From Deltaproteobacteria bacterium (GTDB lineage: Bacteria; UBA10199; JADGCS01): a stretch of DNA of 34,595 nucleotides. A program made the position numbers and the translations under genes. Shown one piece after another: positions 7,916-32,601 of this stretch. The stretch lies in contig JADGCS010000044.1 of NCBI GenBank assembly GCA_015228875.1, positions 1 to 34,595 of the forward strand. Direction: 5' to 3'. The notes under the pieces are model-generated. The model searched no databases. It was not told the origin of the DNA and worked only from the letters and a program-made list of their open reading frames with translations. How positions within the stretch are numbered: position 1 is the first letter of the stretch; each line of letters begins with the position of its first letter.

Positions 7916-9097
7916 ATGAATCTAGAAATGAAACTGGCCCAAACCGATCAGGAAAAAAACAAAATATACAATTTGAGATACAGCATTTATGTAGAAGAGC
8001 TTGGTCTGGTCCCCGAGTTTGCCAATCACGCCGAAAAAACACTTAAAGAACCCGCCGACAAATACGCCCACAACATTTACGCCGAGATAGACGGCCATAT
8101 GGTGGGGGCCATGAGGCTGAACTCTAAAAAAGAGGGGCCGCTGGAACACGAAAAACTCTACGATCTTTACAAGTTCAAGCCCTATTTTCCTGATGGGGTG
8201 GGCATGGCCACCAAATGTGTTATCGCAAAACAAAATCGCGGCAGTTTTGTAACAAAAGAACTTTTTAGATTCGCCTACGACTACATCCGAAAAAACAACC
8301 TCTGCAATTTTATCTTTATTGATTGCTGGCCTCATCTCATCAATCTTTATGAACACCTGGGATTCAGACAGTACAAGACCTGTATCAATCACCCCGAGGC
8401 GGGGTACATGACGCCCATGGTCCTTGTTGTAGAGGACATCACGCACCTTGAGCGCGTGGGTGCGCCGATGTACGACATTGCAAAAAAATATGAGAACCCC
8501 GAACCTTTAAGACAGTTTTTTTACAGACATTTCGAAGAATACGCCAAGCGCCCCGCCCGTATTCTGCTCTCCAACGAAGAACTCTTCGATATTTTAACAA
8601 CAAAACTCTCCGGTGCGCTGGACTCCCTCAACCTTTTTAAGACGCTGACCAAAGAAGAAATTCAGCAGGTGACCGCCATGGGCAACATCCTCACCTGCAA
8701 AGAGGGGGACAGGATCATCGCCTTTGGCGAAGTGAGAAACGAGATTTACACACTGCTTTCGGGGATGGTAAAAGTTGTCCTCAACAACGACGGCGCACAA
8801 AAGGTGCTGACCACCTTTGGCAGGGGCGAGACGTTCGGCGAACTTGCCTTTCTGGCAAAGACAGCAAGAACAGCCGATGTGATTGCCGTCGAAGACTGCG
8901 AGGTGCTGGTCTTTGATTCAAACACCCTCAACAAACTTCTTTCAAGTATTCCGGCCGTGGCAGCAAAGATCTACCGCAACATGGCAGAGATTGTGGCCTT
9001 AAGGATGGTGGCCATGCAGCAACAGACGGATTCTCTGCGGGCGGGTTACGAGAGAAAAATACCGGTTTTGTCCAGAAGAGGCCCGCATGAATCTTAA
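7916..9097 (+). CDS. GNAT acyltransferase (FeeM/LuxI-like) fused to a C-terminal cyclic-nucleotide-binding domain
   Basis: Residues 1-180 resemble the N-acyl amino acid synthase/autoinducer-synthase branch of the GNAT fold: YNLRYSIYVEELGL (18-31), YAEIDGHMVGAMRLN (55-69), and FIDCWPHLINLYEHLGFRQY (134-153). Residues about 235-360 form a CRP-type cyclic-nucleotide-binding (CNB) domain. Its phosphate cassette is intact in outline (FGELAF at 307-312, Arg318-Thr-Ala320), consistent with real ligand binding. There is no DNA-binding helix-turn-helix, so this is not a transcription factor. Mycobacterial protein acetyltransferases join the same two modules in the opposite order. The gene lies 36 bases after the hydrolase, has AGGGAGG before its ATG, and its end overlaps the flavoprotein gene by 11 bases. 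I infer an acyltransferase gated by cAMP or a related nucleotide; acceptor and donor are unknown. Confidence 0.85.
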   Translation: MNLEMKLAQTDQEKNKIYNLRYSIYVEELGLVPEFANHAEKTLKEPADKYAHNIYAEIDGHMVGAMRLNSKKEGPLEHEKLYDLYKFKPYFPDGVGMATKCVIAKQNRGSFVTKELFRFAYDYIRKNNLCNFIFIDCWPHLINLYEHLGFRQYKTCINHPEAGYMTPMVLVVEDITHLERVGAPMYDIAKKYENPEPLRQFFYRHFEEYAKRPARILLSNEELFDILTTKLSGALDSLNLFKTLTKEEIQQVTAMGNILTCKEGDRIIAFGEVRNEIYTLLSGMVKVVLNNDGAQKVLTTFGRGETFGELAFLAKTARTADVIAVEDCEVLVFDSNTLNKLLSSIPAVAAKIYRNMAEIVALRMVAMQQQTDSLRAGYERKIPVLSRRGPHES

Positions 9098-15049: not shown

Positions 15050-15502
15050 TTATTTTTTTAAAAGCCCCTTGAGCTCGTTCATGAACTCGTTGATGTCGCG
15101 AAAGGAACGGTAGACAGAGGCAAAACGCACATAGGCGACATCGTCCAGATCTTTTAGACCCCTCATGACAAGCTCGCCGATCTCGTTTGACTGAATCTCC
15201 TTGTAGCCCTTTTCCTGCAGGCTTTCCTCGACCTGGCGCACCAGGGCGTTAAGCGACTCAATGCCCACCGGTCTTTTTTCACAGGACTTTTTAATCCCGT
15301 TTGAGAGTTTGATTCTGTCGAAGGCCTCCCGCGTGCCGTCTTTTTTGATGACCATGGGCAGGATTTCTTCGATACGTTCGTAAGTGTTAAATCGCCTGTG
15401 ACAACTCTCGCACTCGCGCCGCCTTTTGATGTGGTCCGCCTCGGCAGAGAGCCGCGAGTCGATAACCTTGTCATCGAGACTTTGACAGAAGGGACATTTC
15501 AT
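15050..15502 (-). CDS. nrdR: Transcriptional repressor NrdR
   Basis: NrdR represses ribonucleotide reductase operons in response to ATP/dATP. The 150-aa product has the zinc ribbon (Cys3, Cys6, Cys31, Cys34) with the invariant DSR and [17 protein letters not shown], then an ATP-cone domain (about 49-139) with [16 protein letters not shown] and [14 protein letters not shown]. Length and order are standard. It sits between the MITE and ribD. Because the MITE separates it from glyA by 192 bases, its expression may depend on read-through past a strong hairpin or on a promoter in the element. A ribonucleotide reductase-like pseudoenzyme lies about 7 kb away, but I see no NrdR box pair near it. Confidence 0.97.
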
Positions 15503-22156: not shown

Positions 22157-23617
22157 TTAGGCAATCCTTACAACCGCCTCTCTTGCGCTTTCTGCCTTAA
22201 TCTGCGGTTCGAGGCTTAAACAATGGTTGCTGTGTGCCCTGATCAGGGCATCCTTAAGCGGTCCGTACCCCATATGTGTCATCACCATTTTATAAGAGGC
22301 AATGTTGTGAGAGTCGTTCTGCCATAACGAGTGTCTGGCGCCATTTTTGTCTGAAGCATCACCAGACAAATTGTCCGACAAAAAATAGAGGGGGGTTTTG
22401 CTCACCCGCGCCCACTCAGCCTGGTGAATCTGGGTGATCAACTGGCTGTGACGTGCAGGATGCCACCTGCCGTTGTACCAGATCTTCTGCATGATCCCCC
22501 GCTGTTCTCCAAGCTCGTACGATGCCTTGATGGCCTGCGTGTTGATAAAATCAATAATGTACTTAAGACAGCGCTGTTCCTTTTTTTCTCCGCCCTCCGG
22601 GTTGATGGCCTCTAAAGCAGCTGACAATCCCAACACAGACAGGCCCACGCGCCTCGTTCTCCTGCTTTTTTCTGATGTGATCTGGTCGGGATAGGGTCTG
22701 ATCTCGATACAGTTATCCAGAAAATGAACGGCTGTGCGGATTGTCTGCGAGAGGGCCTCTTCATCAAGATGATTGTCGCGAGCAAAAGAAAGAAGATTAA
22801 GACAGCCGCTGGCTGTTATTTCGTGGGAATCCACAAGCTGTCCCTGAAGATTCACAACAGGTCGGATGGAAAACCTGTGGTTGTAAACAAAGGCATCGAT
22901 CCAGTCCTCAAAGAAAAAACTGATTTCCTTGCCCAGACAAAGCAGATCCACAATCTTGTTAAAGACGTCATCTGCCCGAATAAACTGGCTTGGCTCCTGC
23001 TGCCTTTTGTGTCTCAGGCCGTATTGTGCCCCATTGCAAAGGGCCCAGACAAACTCCCTGCTGACACCAATCATCAAACGGTTCTGGTTTGGACTCTCTC
23101 TGATAAAGGCAAGGCAGCGACTGATATCCAGATGATCGATGTTAAGGTAAAAGCATATCACCGAGGACTGATCGTCATGCCGCGGGGCTTTTTCGTATAA
23201 CTCCATCAATTTCTCGGGACCCAGGCTCTGGCGGTCACCTGTTCCAACCCTGGCGCGGCTCGCCCGGAGGTCAGAAAAATCAACAGCCACATCGATGTTG
23301 TTCTGCAGATAAATAGAAACCTGCTTGAGTGTGAGAAAAAGATTATCGAAGTCATCGGTGGGCCTTAACGCCACATGCCCCCCCATGAGAGCGTCTGATT
23401 GAAAGTTGTGGCAGAGAATGGCGGCCTCGGGCAAAAAGAAATTATGGAGCATGAGATGATAGAACCCATCGCGCAAAGCCTGCAAATCGTGAGAGGGCCC
23501 ATACCTCCTGTCAGCACGGGCAACATGATCCGCAAGCTGCCTTAAATGCTCAAGAGGGTCCCTGTGATCAATAAGTGATTTGAGGGAGACTTTGTCAATC
23601 ATGCCGTCATTATCCAT
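22157..23617 (-). CDS. Ribonucleotide-reductase-fold protein lacking the catalytic motif (probable pseudoenzyme), 486 aa
   Basis: The order of motifs follows the RNR large subunit. FYHLMLHNFFLPEAAIL (52-68) corresponds to 'RFLPNSPTL'. GGHVALRPTDDFDNLFLTLKQ (79-99) lies at the first redox-Cys strand. DVAVDFSDLRASRARVGTG (109-127) corresponds to 'GTGFDFSRLRP..S.V'. SGCLNLLSFARDN (270-282) corresponds to the 'SCNLGSINL' strand, and LDNCIEI...RRTRRVGLSVLGLSAAL (300-334) to the barrel end. The essential NPCGE (class II; NLCLE in E. coli NrdA) is NLQGQ at 256-260, so radical Cys and Glu are both Gln. The first redox Cys is also absent (GGHVAL), and there is no C-terminal Cys pair. It cannot reduce ribonucleotides by the known mechanism. 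The frame is intact over 486 codons, so it is conserved, not decaying. Start ATG 23617 has GAGGG upstream. Confidence 0.85.
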   Translation of the reverse strand: MDNDGMIDKVSLKSLIDHRDPLEHLRQLADHVARADRRYGPSHDLQALRDGFYHLMLHNFFLPEAAILCHNFQSDALMGGHVALRPTDDFDNLFLTLKQVSIYLQNNIDVAVDFSDLRASRARVGTGDRQSLGPEKLMELYEKAPRHDDQSSVICFYLNIDHLDISRCLAFIRESPNQNRLMIGVSREFVWALCNGAQYGLRHKRQQEPSQFIRADDVFNKIVDLLCLGKEISFFFEDWIDAFVYNHRFSIRPVVNLQGQLVDSHEITASGCLNLLSFARDNHLDEEALSQTIRTAVHFLDNCIEIRPYPDQITSEKSRRTRRVGLSVLGLSAALEAINPEGGEKKEQRCLKYIIDFINTQAIKASYELGEQRGIMQKIWYNGRWHPARHSQLITQIHQAEWARVSKTPLYFLSDNLSGDASDKNGARHSLWQNDSHNIASYKMVMTHMGYGPLKDALIRAHSNHCLSLEPQIKAESAREAVVRIA

Positions 23618-23640
23618 ATGAATAGCCCTCAGCCCAGCGA

Positions 23641-23729
23641 CATAACTCGCATAAAGCGTAAAACACTACGCGGGCGGACACCATGCAAAAATTGATGCCG
23701 AAACGCGTAGAAAAAACCTTCCAAGGTTC
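23641..23729 (+). repeat. Dispersed structured repeat, copy 2
   Basis: It comprises CATAACTCGCATAAAGCG (23641-23658), four spacer bases, then the 67-bp core 23663-23729, identical to 2151-2217. The core has inverted arms CTACGCG/CGCGTAG and the terminal hairpin AACCTT-CC-AAGGTT (23715-23728). It lies in the divergent gap between the RNR-like gene and smc. Confidence 0.92.
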
Positions 23730-23843
23730 TAACGTCATATAAAATTTGATAAATATTTTTTTTTAAGTTAGTGTCTTTACAATTGTTGCTGTTTGGTTCT
23801 AGGGTGATTAATCTAAATTATACGCTTCATCGAAGGTGTCAAC

Positions 23844-26800
23844 GTGAAACTAAAAAGTATTGAGATTCAAGGCTTTAAGTCTTTTGATGATAAAACAATG
23901 ATCGGCTTCGACGACGATATCACCTGTATCGTCGGTCCTAATGGCTGTGGCAAGTCCAATATTGTCGATGCCATCCGCTGGGTCATGGGCGAGCAATCCG
24001 CCAAACACCTGCGCGGGCGCGGGATGGAGGACGTCATCTTTGCGGGGACCATCGAGCGCCCCCCAAACAGTCTCGCCTCGGTCGAACTCACCTTTGACAC
24101 CACAGGGACCAACACACCTCCGCAATACTCGCAGCTCAGTGCAGTTTCCATTGGAAGAAAACTTTTCAGGTCCGGGGAAAGTGAATACTACATCAACAAA
24201 CAACCCGTGCGTCTTAAAGACGTCACCGATTTCTTTCTGGGAACAGGGGTTGGCACAAAGGCCTACTCCATCATAGAGCAGGGCCGCGTCGGGATGGTTG
24301 TCGAATCAAAACCAGAAGACAGACGATCTATCATCGAAGAAGCTGCTGGGATTTCAAAATTCAAGGCACGCAAAGAAGCCGCACTGAGAAAAATAGAATC
24401 CACAAGACAAAACTTGAGCCGCTTAAACGATATCCTTACCGAAATCGACCGCCAAAAAAACACCCTGGCCCGACAGGCAAAAAAGGCAGAAAAATTTCAA
24501 GTCATCAGGGACGAATTAAAAGATCTCGATCTCAAGCTGGCCTCCCTCTCGTACGAAACCCTCGATACCGAACAAAAAAACGCCCTCTCCACCATCAGGG
24601 AACTGAGCACACAGGAACAAACCCTCCAAAATAAAATTCAAGAAGACGAAAACTGGATCGAAGATAAAAAGCTGCATCTGGTTTCTGTCGAGACCGAGCT
24701 TAATGATCTGCAACAGGATGTCTTTGAGTGGGACAATACTCTCAAACTTACCGAGACAAAAATACAAACCAGAAAAGACGACATCTCAAGATCTGGGGCC
24801 TCCATCACGCAAATGGAGAACGAACTTGCCGAACGCCGCAAGGAATGTGAGGGCTCTCAAAACGGACTCTCCCAGGTCAATGAAAAACTCGCTCTGGCAG
24901 AGCTTGACTGCGCCGCAACAGATGACAACGTCAAGGATCAGACCGCTTACCTCACTGTACTCGAAGCATCAAGCGGATCGCTCTTCTCCGTCCTCGAAGA
25001 AACCCGCGAAAGCTTTAACAACGCGGGTCGTGAGCTCTCCCAGACAAAAACACGCAAAGAAAACATCACGGCGCGCCTGAACGAACTCATCGAAAAGGAA
25101 AACACCGATCAGGCCGAACTGGGCGAACTCTCACAAAAGCACAAAAAAATGAGCCGCCTCCTCGACGAAATAAAAAAAGATTTAAACTCCATCAAACAGC
25201 TTAAACTCACCCTCACCCAACAAACCGACAGTCTTCACGAAAAACTTTCGGCAGAAGATACAGTCCTTAAAAGGGAACAAAACGAATTATCAACAATCAA
25301 AAATGAACTTTTATCCCGTGAGTCACGACTCAAATCTCTCGAAGAACTCGAGCGCAACTTTGAAGGCTATCACGAAGGTCCCCGACAGATTCTCAAAAGC
25401 AGAAAAAAAGGAGACATCACCGGCGTGATGAGTTCCGTCGCCGAAATCATCGAGACAGAACCCCTCTACGAAACCCCCGTCTCGGCAGTCCTCGGCGAAC
25501 GCATGCAGTACCTCATCGTAAAAAATCAATCCGAAGGGGTCCAGTGTGCAGAGTTTCTCAAGGCCTCAAGCGTCGGCCGCAGTTCGTTTATCCCGATCTC
25601 GCTGTCACAGAACACCGCCGAAAAAACAGAAAACGCAAACCCCGTTGTCTCCTTTCTCAGAGATTGTAAGGGGTACAATGTCTATACCGAAAACTACCTC
25701 AACGGGACAGGGCCCGAACCGCAGGAGGGGCTTGATGAGATTCTCTCCGCTCATAACGACAACCACAAACCACGGGCACTACCAGACGGCCTCAAACTCA
25801 AGGGGGTCATGGGCCGGCTGACCGATTATATAAAACTCAAAGAAGGGTATCAGGATCTGGGCCGCCTTCTCTTTGGCGATGTGGTTCTTGCCGATCGCAT
25901 CTCCAATGCCCTCGAAATCTGGTCCAGCACAAGTTTCCCCGTGGTCACTATGGACGGTGAGACCATCTCAAAGGACGGCATCATCACAGGAGGTTCCACC
26001 GAAGACACCTCAAAGGCCCTCCTCGAAAAAAAGCGGGAGATCAAAGAACTCCATCTGGTTATTGCCGGGCTTGTCCAGCAGGTGAAGTCCAAAGAAGACG
26101 TCTGCACCGAGCTCCTCGCCAAAATAAACAGCACAAAATCAGAGATAGAAAATATCCGCTCCTCCTGTCATGTCGAGGATGTCAGGTTCGCCGAGCAGGA
26201 AAAAGACATCCTGCATTACACAAACGATCTTAAAAACCTAAACGACAGAAGGAGCCGCCTCACACAGCAGATCTTCGAAACAAAAACGGCGATCGATGAC
26301 CTTGGTGACCAACTCAAACAGCAGGAACAAAACGAAAAAGACCTCGAACAGATTTTAAATCAGTCGGCAGAAATTCTTAAAAACAAAAAATCAGAGGAAG
26401 AATCCTGCCGCAAGGAACTCGCGCAAAAACAAGAAGACCTCACCAAAGAAAAAATAAAACTGGCACAGCTCAAAGAACAGAGATCTTTTCTGGCTCAGGA
26501 AGTCGACCGCCTGATTGCCGAGCAGATCAGACTCAAACAAGAAATCATCAGAACACATGGGCTCAAGCAGTTTACATCACGAAAAGAAAAATTTCTTCAG
26601 GACCGCCTTGCTTATCTCGAAAAATTTATACGCAAAACTCTCGAGAACAAGGATGCCGTTGATCAAAAATACAGGGCCAAGAAAAACGAATTTGAAATTC
26701 TTCACAACGAGATCACAGAAAAAGAAGTTACCTTAAAAAAAGACAGGCAGGAACACAGCCGGATCAAGGACGATTTAAACAAAACCACGCTTAATTTATC

Positions 26801-27557
26801 CGAAACAAGAAACACTCTTTCCCGTCTCAACGAACAACTCATTGAGCGATATCAACTTGTCCTGTCCGAAATTTATCAAGATCACAAACCAGACCCCTCC
26901 CTGTTTGAGGAAGGGGCAGCACAAGAAAGGGCAGCGGAGCTCCGTGCCAAAATCGCCAACCTTGGCAACGTCAACATCGCGGCCATTGACGAGCTTAACG
27001 AAATCACACAGCGCTTCGAGTTTTTATCCGGTCAGCGTCAGGACCTCGAAAAATCGCTCCTTTCCCTTGAGCGCGCCATACAAAAAATCAACAGGACATC
27101 AGCAGAACGATTTAAAAACACGTTTGAACAGATCAACGAAAAATTCACAAAGCTCTTTCCAAGGCTTTTTCAGGGCGGACATGCGTATCTTCAATTAACT
27201 GATCCAGAAAATATTTTAGAAACAGGCGTCGAAATTATTGCACAGCCACCGGGCAAAAAATTGCAGTCCATGTCACTCCTGTCCGGGGGAGAAAAGGCCC
27301 TGACCGCGGTAAGCCTTTTGTTTGCAATCTTTCTTATCAAACCATCACCGTTCTGTCTGCTCGATGAGGTCGATGCCCCACTCGACGACAGCAACGTGGA
27401 CCGCTACAACGACATCGTTAAAGAAATGTCACAGCGCACACAGTTTGTGGTCATCACCCACAACAAGCGCACCATGCAGGTCAGCGACTGCCTCTTTGGT
27501 GTCACCATGCAAGAACGCGGCATCTCAAAAATTGTTTCGGTGAATCTGAATGCGTGA
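23844..27557 (+). CDS. smc: Chromosome segregation ATPase SMC
   Basis: SMC dimers organise and condense the chromosome with ScpA/ScpB. The 1237-aa product has the N-terminal ATPase half with Walker A GPNGCGKSN (31-39) and the conserved GAGIS-like EEAAGISKFKARK. A long coiled coil follows (about 165-500), then the hinge (about 500-680, with PLYETPVSAVLGERMQYLIV), MDGETISKDGIITGGS just beyond, and a second coiled coil to about 1030. The C-terminal half has the signature LSGGEKALTA (about 1146-1155) and Walker B FCLLDEVDAPLDD (about 1169-1181). It ends SKIVSVNLNA, normal for the family. The start is GTG 23844 with a weak ribosome binding site (GAAGG). Scp genes are not adjacent. The last 27 bases of the gene recur at 29484. 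Confidence 0.98.
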   Translation: MKLKSIEIQGFKSFDDKTMIGFDDDITCIVGPNGCGKSNIVDAIRWVMGEQSAKHLRGRGMEDVIFAGTIERPPNSLASVELTFDTTGTNTPPQYSQLSAVSIGRKLFRSGESEYYINKQPVRLKDVTDFFLGTGVGTKAYSIIEQGRVGMVVESKPEDRRSIIEEAAGISKFKARKEAALRKIESTRQNLSRLNDILTEIDRQKNTLARQAKKAEKFQVIRDELKDLDLKLASLSYETLDTEQKNALSTIRELSTQEQTLQNKIQEDENWIEDKKLHLVSVETELNDLQQDVFEWDNTLKLTETKIQTRKDDISRSGASITQMENELAERRKECEGSQNGLSQVNEKLALAELDCAATDDNVKDQTAYLTVLEASSGSLFSVLEETRESFNNAGRELSQTKTRKENITARLNELIEKENTDQAELGELSQKHKKMSRLLDEIKKDLNSIKQLKLTLTQQTDSLHEKLSAEDTVLKREQNELSTIKNELLSRESRLKSLEELERNFEGYHEGPRQILKSRKKGDITGVMSSVAEIIETEPLYETPVSAVLGERMQYLIVKNQSEGVQCAEFLKASSVGRSSFIPISLSQNTAEKTENANPVVSFLRDCKGYNVYTENYLNGTGPEPQEGLDEILSAHNDNHKPRALPDGLKLKGVMGRLTDYIKLKEGYQDLGRLLFGDVVLADRISNALEIWSSTSFPVVTMDGETISKDGIITGGSTEDTSKALLEKKREIKELHLVIAGLVQQVKSKEDVCTELLAKINSTKSEIENIRSSCHVEDVRFAEQEKDILHYTNDLKNLNDRRSRLTQQIFETKTAIDDLGDQLKQQEQNEKDLEQILNQSAEILKNKKSEEESCRKELAQKQEDLTKEKIKLAQLKEQRSFLAQEVDRLIAEQIRLKQEIIRTHGLKQFTSRKEKFLQDRLAYLEKFIRKTLENKDAVDQKYRAKKNEFEILHNEITEKEVTLKKDRQEHSRIKDDLNKTTLNLSETRNTLSRLNEQLIERYQLVLSEIYQDHKPDPSLFEEGAAQERAAELRAKIANLGNVNIAAIDELNEITQRFEFLSGQRQDLEKSLLSLERAIQKINRTSAERFKNTFEQINEKFTKLFPRLFQGGHAYLQLTDPENILETGVEIIAQPPGKKLQSMSLLSGGEKALTAVSLLFAIFLIKPSPFCLLDEVDAPLDDSNVDRYNDIVKEMSQRTQFVVITHNKRTMQVSDCLFGVTMQERGISKIVSVNLNA

Positions 27558-28141: not shown

Positions 28142-29020
28142 TTACATACAACATTTTTTATATTTTTTTCCACTGCCACATGGACAGAGATCGTTTCTGC
28201 CAATTTCAGGCATATGAAGTTGTTTTGTGACATCAAGTTGTTTTGTGCCATCAACAAAATGCCTGCTCTTACTGTGGGCATAAATACTTTTTAATTTTAT
28301 ATGTCTATTAAGCAGTTGCGTGTAGATATTAGCAATCTGTTTTTCTATAGCCGACACAACAGTTTTTTTATCAATAGATATTCTCTTGTTTTCGAGCTGT
28401 CCCCATTTTTTTTTCCTGTAATTCAGTTGTACTGTGCATATCTCCTTACCTGGGTTATTGTATTCGTTTGAATAAATATTCAATACTGTGTCTGTACATG
28501 GACACTTAGGTAATAGACAGTAATAGTCATAAATTATACATTTGTTGCCGTCTATATCAACCAAGAGCAGATCTCCGTACGGCAGAACATTGTTATATGC
28601 AGACATGATTCCGTTTTGTTCTACCTCATCATAGTCAAAGTGAGCATCAATTGAATCAACAGCCGCCTCTTCGGTTTTTTTGTTTTTGCGTGAGAAATAA
28701 AACTTCCACAAGAGTACAAAATCAGATTCATCCATTAAAGATAAAAAGAAATTTGCAAACTCCAAATCTTCATTGGAAATTTTTTCTTCATTTTTGTAAT
28801 TTAGTTTTTTCTGAACAATGTCAATATCGATTTTATAGGATGAATTAATTTTATTATTGTTGTCTCTTGGTCCCAAAAGTTGAAGAGTCAAAAAAACAGT
28901 CGCGCAAGTACAAACAGGGTTGTCGCAAGAGAGAAGAGAACATTCATAGCGTCCCGCATTTTTACCACTTTGAATTGTAGCAATGATTTTTTTTGTTTCA
29001 TTTTCAACTAATAACACCAT
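28142..29020 (-). CDS. SEC-C motif protein, AT-rich, 292 aa
   Basis: The C-terminus is a canonical SEC-C zinc-binding motif, [19 protein letters not shown], as found at the end of SecA and in many accessory proteins. The rest is not a SecA domain. It has an N-terminal beta-rich segment with CDNPVCTC (near residue 32-39) and a second Cys cluster LLPKCPC near 169-175, so up to three metal sites are possible. I chose ATG 29020 because GGAG lies eight bases upstream; the in-frame extension to 29077 reads transposase sequence out of frame. The gene is visibly richer in A and T, and in codons such as AAA, AAT and ATA, than its neighbours, and sits beside an IS relic. I infer recent transfer. Function is unknown. 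Confidence 0.78.
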
Positions 29021-29040
29021 TTGCTTCGCTCCGTCTTTGT

Positions 29041-29545
29041 TATCCCCTGATCCGCCAGACTGGCCACTATCTTCCAAGGGGAAGTATCCTGATATTCACA
29101 TGATGTGGCAATCTCAATTATTCTTCCCTTTTCTTCAAGGCTCAGCTTGTTTGCTGGCGCATCCAAGGGACCCCGTCTCTGGTCATCAGGAGATTCCTTC
29201 CAGCGATTGAGCGTCTTTAAATCTACGCCAAGATCCTCACACGCCACCTTAAGACGACACCCATTCATGTTTGCCTCCTCAATCAAATCCATGCATTGCT
29301 TTTTGTCTTCTCTGCTTATTCGTCGTCCTCGGGTTCCCCCCACAACAATTGACTTTTTTTAACAGAACTATTCTGGCGCTGACCTCCGCCAAGGCCCTGT
29401 CTTTTTTATGAAGATCCCTTGTCAAATCCTTCACCTCTTTTCTTAACTCGACAACTTCAGGATCCAGTCTGGGCCGTCCCTTGACTGTCTCGGTGAATCT
29501 TAATGCGTGAACCTCATGCGACAGTTGAAGCACACCGAGCGACAT
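29041..29545 (-). pseudogene. IS3-type transposase remnant, truncated at both ends
   Basis: Two overlapping frames give the middle of a transposase. The first, from about 29480, reads DPEVVELRKEVKDLTRDLHKKDRALAEVSARIVLLKK. A -1 shift at a run of seven A (about 29357) leads into the second: GRRISREDKKQCMDLIEEANM, LGVDLKTLNRWK, RRGP, PANKLSLEEKGRII, and [11 protein letters not shown]. This pattern matches the HTH/leader part of IS3-family transposases that continue with 'ASESTFYR' and an integrase core. Here the match stops at about 29041, and the catalytic DDE region is missing. The shift could be the programmed one of the family or decay. The N-terminal part (29484-29545) overlaps the smc-end repeat and may not be transposase. 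Confidence 0.75.
29484..29531 (+). repeat. Direct repeat, distal copy of the smc 3' end
   Basis: This diverged copy of 27531-27578 has 42 of 48 bases identical. Read on the plus strand it encodes TVSVNLNA and a TGA stop, as the smc end does (IVSVNLNA). It closes the AT-rich island on the side away from smc. Confidence 0.8.
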
Positions 29546-29601: not shown

Positions 29602-32601
29602 TCAGGTTTGTCTTACCACAACAGCCCTGCCTTTTCTCCCATCGAGGTGTGCCGAGATCGGGTTGTGAAGCCTTACATGCCTGATAAATTCGCCTTCCCA
29701 CTGCACGGGCTGTGCGTTAATCCACGCGGTGTCCAGAAAGGAACTGCCGATTGCAGTTGATTCTCCCTTGTTCGAAAGTGTGAGATACCCCACGCCCTTT
29801 GAAACAATGTTCTGAAAAAAATGTGTCCCCTGTGAAGGCTCCACCATGTGCCCAAAGAGTGGCGTCTCGGCGATCAGACACGCGCCCGTGATATCGCACC
29901 ACTTGATGGGAATCCCCAGACTCGGATCTGATGAACCCCACCTGCCCGGACCAACAAGAAAATAAGGGCGTTTTTCTTTTTGCAAACCCTCGTTAATCAT
30001 GCCAACCTGTCCGGCAATCTCGGAGGTCTTTCTAAAATCAAGTGTATCATTCTTGATAAAGACAATATCTCTGATATTCTGGAAGGTGCCGTGGCCCAGT
30101 GCCATTGCCGTGCGACAGATAATATCTTTGTCATCATAACCTTCGAGATCAACAACGGCAGATAAAACCTGCGACGCAAGCGGCCTCATCTGAAGAATGT
30201 ACAACACAGGGTCACCACTCCCCTTTTGATCCAGCGCAAATTCGATTTCAATGGGAAAACCCACCTCGTTTTTTATTGCCGGCAAAAGCTCTGCCAGTGC
30301 CCCTGCCAGGGGAATTTGATTGTATTTGAGGACGTGATTAAAGGTCAGGATGCGGGGACCCGACAGGTTAAAGTTTTCGCGGATGGCATCGTCGTCCGCA
30401 CAGTAGACACTTGCCACATGTTTCAGGGACCCGTCCGCTTCTGCCTGTTCGATGTCGACAAAATCCAGAGACTCATCATCGGAACTCGAAGTAAAATCAA
30501 TCGTCGCTCTCGCAAGATTAAGGGCATAAAATTTTTTCTGGGTGTATTTTAGATAATCGGCAGGTTTTGAAAACTGCGGCAGGACTTCGGGGGTGTTGGG
30601 TGAAAATCTTAAAACAGCCGCCCCTTGGACCACCGCGTGACCCAGACCGAGGACAATCTGGGCAATACCATCCTCAGCCTTCTGGTGACCAATGGGATAA
30701 AAATTGTAGGACTGTGCCACCCCTGAAATCAGCGGATAGTAACGATTGCCGTACTGCTGCCCGATGACCTGCTGGATCACAATCGCCATGCTCTCTTCCT
30801 CGCGCGAATGGGCGGTCCCAGCCCTGTAACTCTGGGCGTTCTTAAAATAAAGGGATGCGTAGACCGCCTTGATGGCACGGCAGAGTTCCAGAAATCTCAC
30901 ATTGGGATCGGGGTGGTTGTTGGGCAGCATGTAGGTGGAGTAAATCCCCGCAAACGGCTGGAACTGAGAGTCCTCGAGAATACTCGACGACCTCACCGCA
31001 ATAGGTCCCGTCATGTTGTTGAGCACAAATTTCAAATGATCCCAGTGCTCTTCCGAAAGTTTGCCCACAATAAACCTCTGGACGATCTCCTGATCGGTCT
31101 TAAGCCTGTCGATTTCTTCATACAGGTTGTTAACGAGCATAAATTTTTCAAACTCGTCCGTCCCCAGTGCCACTGTTTGCGGTATGGTGATTTCGAGATT
31201 TGAAATGCGTTCGTGAAGACCATACCGCGCAAACAGCGAATTGATGAAGGCAATCCCCCGCCCCTTGCCGCCGATGGAGCCTGTCCCCATCCTGATAAAG
31301 GGATTTTCGGGACCAACCTGCCCGGTTGAAAAATCCGCGATCACGCCCTGCTGTTCCTGCTTTCTTGCCAGTCTGAAGGACTTGATAAAATACTCCCTCA
31401 TTTCTTCGATATCCTTAAAGTCGGCAACAGAGAGCTTCTTGAGTTTATCGGCAAGGCTGAACATGCTGCGTGCATAAAACCACGTGGAAAAGTGATTGTG
31501 TTTTGAGTGGTACTCTATGGATTCGGCGGGGATGGTCTTGATGAGTTTTTCCATCTCCTTGACATCCTTCGCCCTCGCAATCTCAAGCCCGTTGGGATAT
31601 TTGAAGGCAAAACTCCCCAGACCAAGTGAATCAAAAACAAAATGCCTTATTTTTTTTAGAAGATGGGGCGAATTTTTGTCTACATAGTTGATCCCGAGAC
31701 TTTTCGCCTGTTCGAGATTTTCTGATTTTGATGACTGCAGCATGAGGGAGAGCATGGGGTCTTCCCCGGCAAGCGTTTTCACAAGATCAAATCCCGCATT
31801 GTTCTCTGTCGCCCCGCTGCCCCTGGGAAGACTGACGTCGCTGATCACGGCCATGACCTGATCTTTATAGGTATGATAGAGATCCAAGGCATCTTCGTAA
31901 CTCGTCGCAAGAAAAATCTTGGGCCTTGCCCTCATGCGAAAAAGTTTGTGCAGGTCGTTGAGTCCCTCGGAGATCAGGGACTGGGACTGCGCCATCACAA
32001 CCGTGTACAACACCGTGAGAAAGGAAGAGTAATACCGCACCGAATCCTCGACAACAAGAATAGCCTTGATGCCAGCAACCTTTACATCGTGCGGGGCATT
32101 AAAACTGTCTTCAATGATTTTAATGATGGTCAATAATATTCTTGCGTCACCGCGCCACAGAAAGGAGTGATCAACAGCCTTTTTATTAATGCCTCCCGGG
32201 ATCGTTGCAAGGTCGTTCTCATTAAACACGAGCAGCACCACCGGCATCTGGGGATCAATCTCCTTGACCTTGCGCCCAAAATCATTGACATTGCTGTCCT
32301 CAAAACGCGCCATCGTCATCACGAGGTCAAAGTGTCTGGAACTGAGAAGTTTAAGGGCCTCTTCGCCGGTCGAAACATAGGTGATTCTCGGTGCCGAACT
32401 TAAATTAAGACCGGAATACTCGACAAACAGCCGCTCTGCAAGCCGCCCATCCTCACCAAGAATGAACGCGTCGTATTTTGTTGCGAGTAGAAGTATCTCC
32501 CTCACCCTAAAATGCATGAGATCATGAAATCTTAAAAGCCACGACCCACTGGTCTGATAACCGCGAAGATACGAGGATAAAAATTCTTCTTTTTGGTTCA
32601 T
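29602..32601 (-). CDS. Receiver-domain protein with PEP-synthase/PPDK-type ATP-grasp domain, 999 aa
   Basis: Residues about 35-165 look like a degenerate receiver domain, with no phospho-Asp at VMTMARF. Residues about 178-315 form a second receiver domain with the full set: Glu185/Asp186, Asp255 in VISDVSLPRG, and Lys309. The remainder is an N-terminal pyruvate-phosphate-dikinase/PEP-synthase ATP-binding domain: GTGSIGGKGRGIAF (about 435-448), TGPIAVRSSSILEDSQFQPFAGIY (about 530-553), IEIEFALDQKG and LYILQMRPL, then VGPGRWGSSDPSLGIPI (about 880). No phosphohistidine swivel domain or PEP-binding domain follows, so it is not a PEP synthase. It is probably an ATP-using enzyme or signalling protein controlled by phosphorylation. 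It lies 17 bases after the SDR gene. No ribosome binding site is obvious at ATG 32601. Confidence 0.85.
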   Translation of the reverse strand: MNQKEEFLSSYLRGYQTSGSWLLRFHDLMHFRVREILLLATKYDAFILGEDGRLAERLFVEYSGLNLSSAPRITYVSTGEEALKLLSSRHFDLVMTMARFEDSNVNDFGRKVKEIDPQMPVVLLVFNENDLATIPGGINKKAVDHSFLWRGDARILLTIIKIIEDSFNAPHDVKVAGIKAILVVEDSVRYYSSFLTVLYTVVMAQSQSLISEGLNDLHKLFRMRARPKIFLATSYEDALDLYHTYKDQVMAVISDVSLPRGSGATENNAGFDLVKTLAGEDPMLSLMLQSSKSENLEQAKSLGINYVDKNSPHLLKKIRHFVFDSLGLGSFAFKYPNGLEIARAKDVKEMEKLIKTIPAESIEYHSKHNHFSTWFYARSMFSLADKLKKLSVADFKDIEEMREYFIKSFRLARKQEQQGVIADFSTGQVGPENPFIRMGTGSIGGKGRGIAFINSLFARYGLHERISNLEITIPQTVALGTDEFEKFMLVNNLYEEIDRLKTDQEIVQRFIVGKLSEEHWDHLKFVLNNMTGPIAVRSSSILEDSQFQPFAGIYSTYMLPNNHPDPNVRFLELCRAIKAVYASLYFKNAQSYRAGTAHSREEESMAIVIQQVIGQQYGNRYYPLISGVAQSYNFYPIGHQKAEDGIAQIVLGLGHAVVQGAAVLRFSPNTPEVLPQFSKPADYLKYTQKKFYALNLARATIDFTSSSDDESLDFVDIEQAEADGSLKHVASVYCADDDAIRENFNLSGPRILTFNHVLKYNQIPLAGALAELLPAIKNEVGFPIEIEFALDQKGSGDPVLYILQMRPLASQVLSAVVDLEGYDDKDIICRTAMALGHGTFQNIRDIVFIKNDTLDFRKTSEIAGQVGMINEGLQKEKRPYFLVGPGRWGSSDPSLGIPIKWCDITGACLIAETPLFGHMVEPSQGTHFFQNIVSKGVGYLTLSNKGESTAIGSSFLDTAWINAQPVQWEGEFIRHVRLHNPISAHLDGRKGRAVVVRQT

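Follow-up and report, generated by a model that had tools for sequence, protein, structure and literature searches.

The window (the whole stretch of 34,595 nucleotides that was analysed) carries on its minus strand a gene for a 486-residue homologue of the large subunit of ribonucleotide reductase (RNR), divergent from a gene that we take, from its sequence, to be smc. All DNA-based life depends on RNR, which makes the building blocks of DNA, and the catalytic residues of the enzyme are regarded as universal. The locus and its parts are the following:

22157–23617, minus strand: dead class II RNR (NrdJ-like) gene, 486 aa, ATG at 23617, stop at 22157–22159; identified by profile, PDB-sequence and structure matches
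22442–22789, minus strand: best conserved part of the barrel, residues 277–392 (HFLDN...YP...RRVGLSVLG)
22790–22852, minus strand: former finger loop, residues 256–276 (NLQGQLVDSHEITASGCLNLL); radical Cys now Gln258, catalytic Glu lost by deletion (or now Gln260), Thr268 at the second redox position
23150–23191, minus strand: shortened loop 2, residues 143–156; KQGGxRRGANM lost, 4–5 residues deleted
23264–23356, minus strand: helix alphaA and specificity-site anchors, residues 88–118, by alignment to T. maritima
23366–23383, minus strand: former first redox site, residues 79–84, GGHVAL; Cys is His81 by alignment
23618–23843, no strand: intergenic region of 226 bp common to the two divergent genes
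23844–27557, plus strand: smc, divergent neighbour; the same divergent pair is found in a sister genus (G001)
15050–15502, minus strand: nrdR, the RNR repressor gene (zinc ribbon and ATP cone domains), which does not adjoin the dead copy

The NrdJ-like gene looks like any other gene of the window. Its period-3 composition and synonymous codon use are normal, its codon-position GC (0.55/0.37/0.58) matches that of the other window genes, and a Shine-Dalgarno-like GAGGG sits ahead of the ATG. An open frame of 486 codons would arise by chance in random sequence of the same composition with a probability of about 4e-11. The product matches Pfam PF02867 above the curated cut-off (E 1.9e-20) and the NCBIfam models PRK08665 (E 3.5e-37) and NrdJ_Z (E 3e-27), but falls well below the equivalog cut-offs of the latter two (128 of 961 and 95 of 400 bits, respectively), and a PDB sequence search returns T. 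maritima NrdJ (E 3e-13). Judged by these matches, it is a divergent but intact member of the RNR large-subunit family, closest to class II NrdJ; an earlier reading of this DNA made from the sequence alone had likewise called an undamaged frame of RNR type. Similarity to NCBIfam PRK06948, a ‘ribonucleotide reductase-like protein’, is weak (E 2e-8); the score of 33 bits is far below the cut-off of 906, and the protein is not a member.

An AlphaFold2 model built with an alignment (pLDDT 78.7, pTM 0.83) has complexes of T. maritima NrdJ as its best structural matches in the PDB (E 4.6e-24, TM 0.71), and also matches viral RNRs, betaherpesvirus R1 proteins among them. It should be noted that the fold of this model is partly imposed, since the input alignment consists of live NrdJ sequences; prediction from the single sequence, without an alignment, gave no useful model. 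The RNR barrel which the sequence-only reading expected is thus the predicted fold of the protein.

We compared the protein residue by residue with 28 canonical class II sequences, taking ligand contacts of the T. maritima enzyme from PMC4728125. It retains 60 of the 172 near-invariant positions, the count being 16 of 28 in residues 277–376 but 2 of 15 near the phosphate loop and 1 of 7 within loop 2. NLQGQ (256–260) stands where canonical NrdJ has NPCGE, in a finger loop that is one residue short. Asn256 aligns with T. maritima Asn320, and the radical Cys322 has become Gln258. The sequence-only reading saw the motif and the retained Asn correctly and held that the radical Cys and the catalytic Glu were both Gln; for the Cys this stands, but in alignment A2 the Glu (Glu324) is opposite a gap and Gln260 pairs with the conserved Gln at the end of NPCGEQ, which makes deletion of the Glu more likely than its replacement. 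A radical Cys shifted within the finger loop is ruled out, there being no Cys between residues 228 and 271. The first redox Cys (Cys134) is His81, its loss having been noticed before, and the second (Cys333) is Thr268; Cys272, formerly assigned to the latter position, aligns with the Ser of GSINL. The cysteine numbers are those of T. maritima NrdJ and agree with the alignment. Ser91 of the same enzyme is Ala65.

The losses extend beyond the active site. None of the nine cysteines forms the C-terminal pair, as already reported, and about 60 C-terminal residues of canonical NrdJ are missing; Arg207 is absent along with loop 2, and so is the phosphate-binding TIAPTGT motif (PTG). The family motifs therefore do not run over the whole length, as had been supposed. 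Compared with class II NrdJ (T. maritima, PDB 1xje; PRK08665/NrdJ_Z), the protein is homologous over most of its length, with the same predicted barrel but 486 residues against 644. It keeps the dimer helices alphaA and alphaB, the effector anchors Asp141 (Asp88) and Arg171 (Arg118) and Asn320, while Lys158 is Gln105 and the radical Cys, catalytic Glu, redox and C-terminal Cys pairs, loop 2 Arg and phosphate loop are absent. With this set of residues it cannot, as far as alignment tells, be a reductase by the known RNR mechanism.

The gene is not alone in this state. A PF02867 profile search across all 46 genomes of the phylum that were examined revealed a second, RNR-like gene of the same dead clade in 13 genomes from eight families, and each of these genomes also has a separate RNR. 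In the tree, the 13 dead members are split off by one branch (support 100/99); the canonical short NrdJ of G006 and G007 stands next to them (100/99), although long branches weaken the tree. The gene next to mutY is the dead one in G003, G004 and G005 and the live short NrdJ in G006 and G007. These sister genes retain NPCGE, the P-x-G phosphate loop and the redox cysteines, whereas the dead genes do not. Most dead members and the short NrdJ of G006 share an ATP-cone-like N-terminal domain; the window protein, beginning downstream of it, lacks this domain. PF03477 is matched in seven of eight of these N-termini (best E 8e-5), and the assignment rests on such Pfam matches, all under the curated cut-off, since alignment with the ATP cone of the window NrdR gave a probability of only 8%. 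The short NrdJ lineage with this N-terminus contains a clade in which the catalytic set is missing from every member, and a PF02867 match in this phylum does not always mean an RNR.

The finger loop differs from lineage to lineage: NLQGQ in the window, NPRNQ in G001, DPCSG in G002, HPCHA in G003, GVEGD in G004, SPRQA in G005, GSSEK in G010 and HPGGT or RPGGA in G021, G026, G043 and G017, with outright deletion in G011b and G031b. In G002 and G003 the radical Cys persists while Asn and Glu are lost. The Gln pair of the window protein thus has no special meaning, and it is not conserved even in the nearest ortholog. The same variation bears on whether the protein might be an enzyme with a new reaction in the old barrel, run by the Gln pair or other residues, as the sequence-only reading also considered. 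Such a reaction would fit the intact barrel of the predicted structure and Asn256, which is kept in both members of the window family; but a loop unlike even between two orthologs and deleted in two genomes, together with the lost loop 2 and phosphate loop, makes it highly improbable.

A separate case is found in G011, where contig C33 (L075, 1659–3332) carries a second, independently inactivated short NrdJ, G011a, with SPYGE and without both redox cysteines; it adjoins a DsbA/VKOR-like neighbour family that also lies beside live copies of family f14. Among the 30 best PF02867 loci of the phylum, mostly main NrdJ, 28 have NPC[SG]E, and the remaining two lack a contiguous motif and seem to be split by an insert. 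Frames of 1435–1686 aa or without a contiguous NPCxE were seen in L063, L065 and the main nrdJ of G001, G005, G011, G019, G020, G025 and G027, and these are probably canonical RNRs with inteins.

The dead copies appear to be constrained. The closest ortholog of the window gene comes from the sister genus G001. It too lies divergently to smc, has the same start and lacks the same parts of loop 2 and the C-terminus. The two proteins are about 30% identical (122 of 411 aligned residues), and of the shared residues 56 are canonical consensus, whereas 41 are seldom seen (<5%) in canonical enzymes; the derived ones include Thr268, where the redox Cys would stand, and NNI.VA.DFS, which replaces GGGTGFSFS. 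Just one pair of dead genes is close, G021b and G043b. Its dN/dS is 0.21, compared with 0.04 for the live paralogues in those two genomes, so selection on this pair is relaxed yet purifying. The smc-linked ortholog, the 41 derived residues and this ratio together speak for constraint over plain decay, which bears out the preference of the sequence-only reading for a non-reductase role. A functionless pseudogene in the making, that is, a slowly decaying former enzyme, could explain why the active site is different in every lineage, why dN/dS is higher than in the live paralogues and why the G001 copy, as assembled, has one frameshift (a recent lesion, or an artefact of assembly). It is nevertheless improbable given a frame of such length with gene-like codon use, truncations, a neighbour and derived residues common to two genes so far diverged, and a dead copy kept across eight families.

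The genome has a complete RNR gene of its own elsewhere, as the check proposed in the sequence-only reading (a search for a complete nrdA or nrdJ) shows. Contig C147 encodes a 1182-aa NrdJ with NPCSE and class II N-terminal and TSCPD domains, preceded by two NrdR boxes 32 bp apart (L003, 753–800; 0 of 200 shuffles), and neither a class I small subunit nor NrdD was found in the same genome. No NrdR box was found near the dead copy, including its 226-bp intergenic region, and hence there is no sign of its co-regulation by NrdR with the 1182-aa NrdJ.

We regard the protein as probably a catalytically dead class II RNR paralogue that has been retained for its ability to bind. That catalysis was lost and that the gene is retained under selection is firm, while ligand and partner are guesses. 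RNR alpha subunits dimerise via alphaA and alphaB, and an effector nucleotide at loop 1 is relayed to the substrate by loop 2 (PMC9531940). Binding instead of reacting suits a protein in which the helices and two anchors stay while relay, substrate site and chemistry are gone. It would fold as an RNR barrel, dimerise through the two helices, bind a dNTP at the old specificity site via Asp88 and Arg118 and act by contact with another protein, be it itself, NrdJ or another partner, as a sensor or modulator rather than an enzyme. By the alignment, the protein could plausibly bind dNTPs or partner with NrdJ, because the dimer helices and two of three effector anchors remain, and the regulation or nucleotide sensing suggested before is possible given Asp88, Arg118 and the same helices. 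Effector binding is not clade-wide, as Lys158 is replaced by Gln, loop 2 is eroded and the Asp/Arg anchors are missing from several other dead members; a nucleotide-effector role may therefore be restricted to the window family. A more specific proposal, that a second class II RNR was turned into a dNTP-sensing regulator which controls NrdJ or reports the dNTP state to chromosome maintenance (smc is adjacent), is tentative; if true, cellular life would have its first example of an RNR pseudoenzyme with a regulatory role.

A binding function needs no nucleotide. The barrel might be re-used as a protein-interaction surface, with the effector residues as structural relics, and here a described precedent exists, contrary to the earlier statement that such a protein has none. 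Betaherpesvirus R1 proteins (MCMV M45/vIRA, HCMV UL45) are RNR large-subunit homologues without catalysis and with another role (PMC12282084, PMC5469499), the inactive protein having been repurposed for protein interactions (PMC12282084). A scaffold of this kind also agrees with the freely varying active site and loop 2, with the loss of effector anchors in many clade members and with the lack of an NrdR box at the dead gene. On the other hand, the ATP-cone-like domain is kept in most of the clade and the window family retains its Asp/Arg anchors, so we consider a scaffold without any nucleotide link rather unlikely. As to the viral parallel, the window protein too is a large-subunit homologue without catalytic residues, and by analogy it might work like betaherpesvirus R1. 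However, those are animal-virus genes acting on host proteins of cell death and inflammation, while the window gene is of class II origin and belongs to a bacterial phylum. Returning to the dead paralogue kept for binding, an inherited clade of such genes lets one see, as in a natural experiment, which parts of the RNR fold still count once catalysis is gone.

In the literature searched, whose coverage is incomplete, no inactive RNR was found outside herpesviruses, bacteria included. No dead RNR was seen among the 80 best matches in viral contigs: 68 have NPC[GS]E, and the other 12 share an EQDL...EAC loop, with NLCGE in the four whose motif was read. For other phyla, NPCGE is present in 19 of the 20 listed loci, the remaining one (L190) being read in another frame. 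A search of genome contigs for named relatives gave one match, a NrdJ-like gene of Woesearchaeota (L002, DUKZ01000003.1, 7866–9641). It has GSCGQ for NPCGE, with Gly for Asn and Gln for Glu, and Asp at the first redox Cys, with the remaining catalytic and effector sites mostly kept, and from its sequence is possibly another non-canonical RNR.

Elsewhere in the window, broken transposase-like ORFs in different frames (29008–29545) are probably an insertion-sequence remnant. A cyclic-nucleotide-binding domain is fused to a FeeM-like N-acyl amino acid synthase at 7916–9097, and 29602–32601 encodes a protein of 999 aa that combines response-regulator-like, DUF5752 and PPDK ATP-binding domains.
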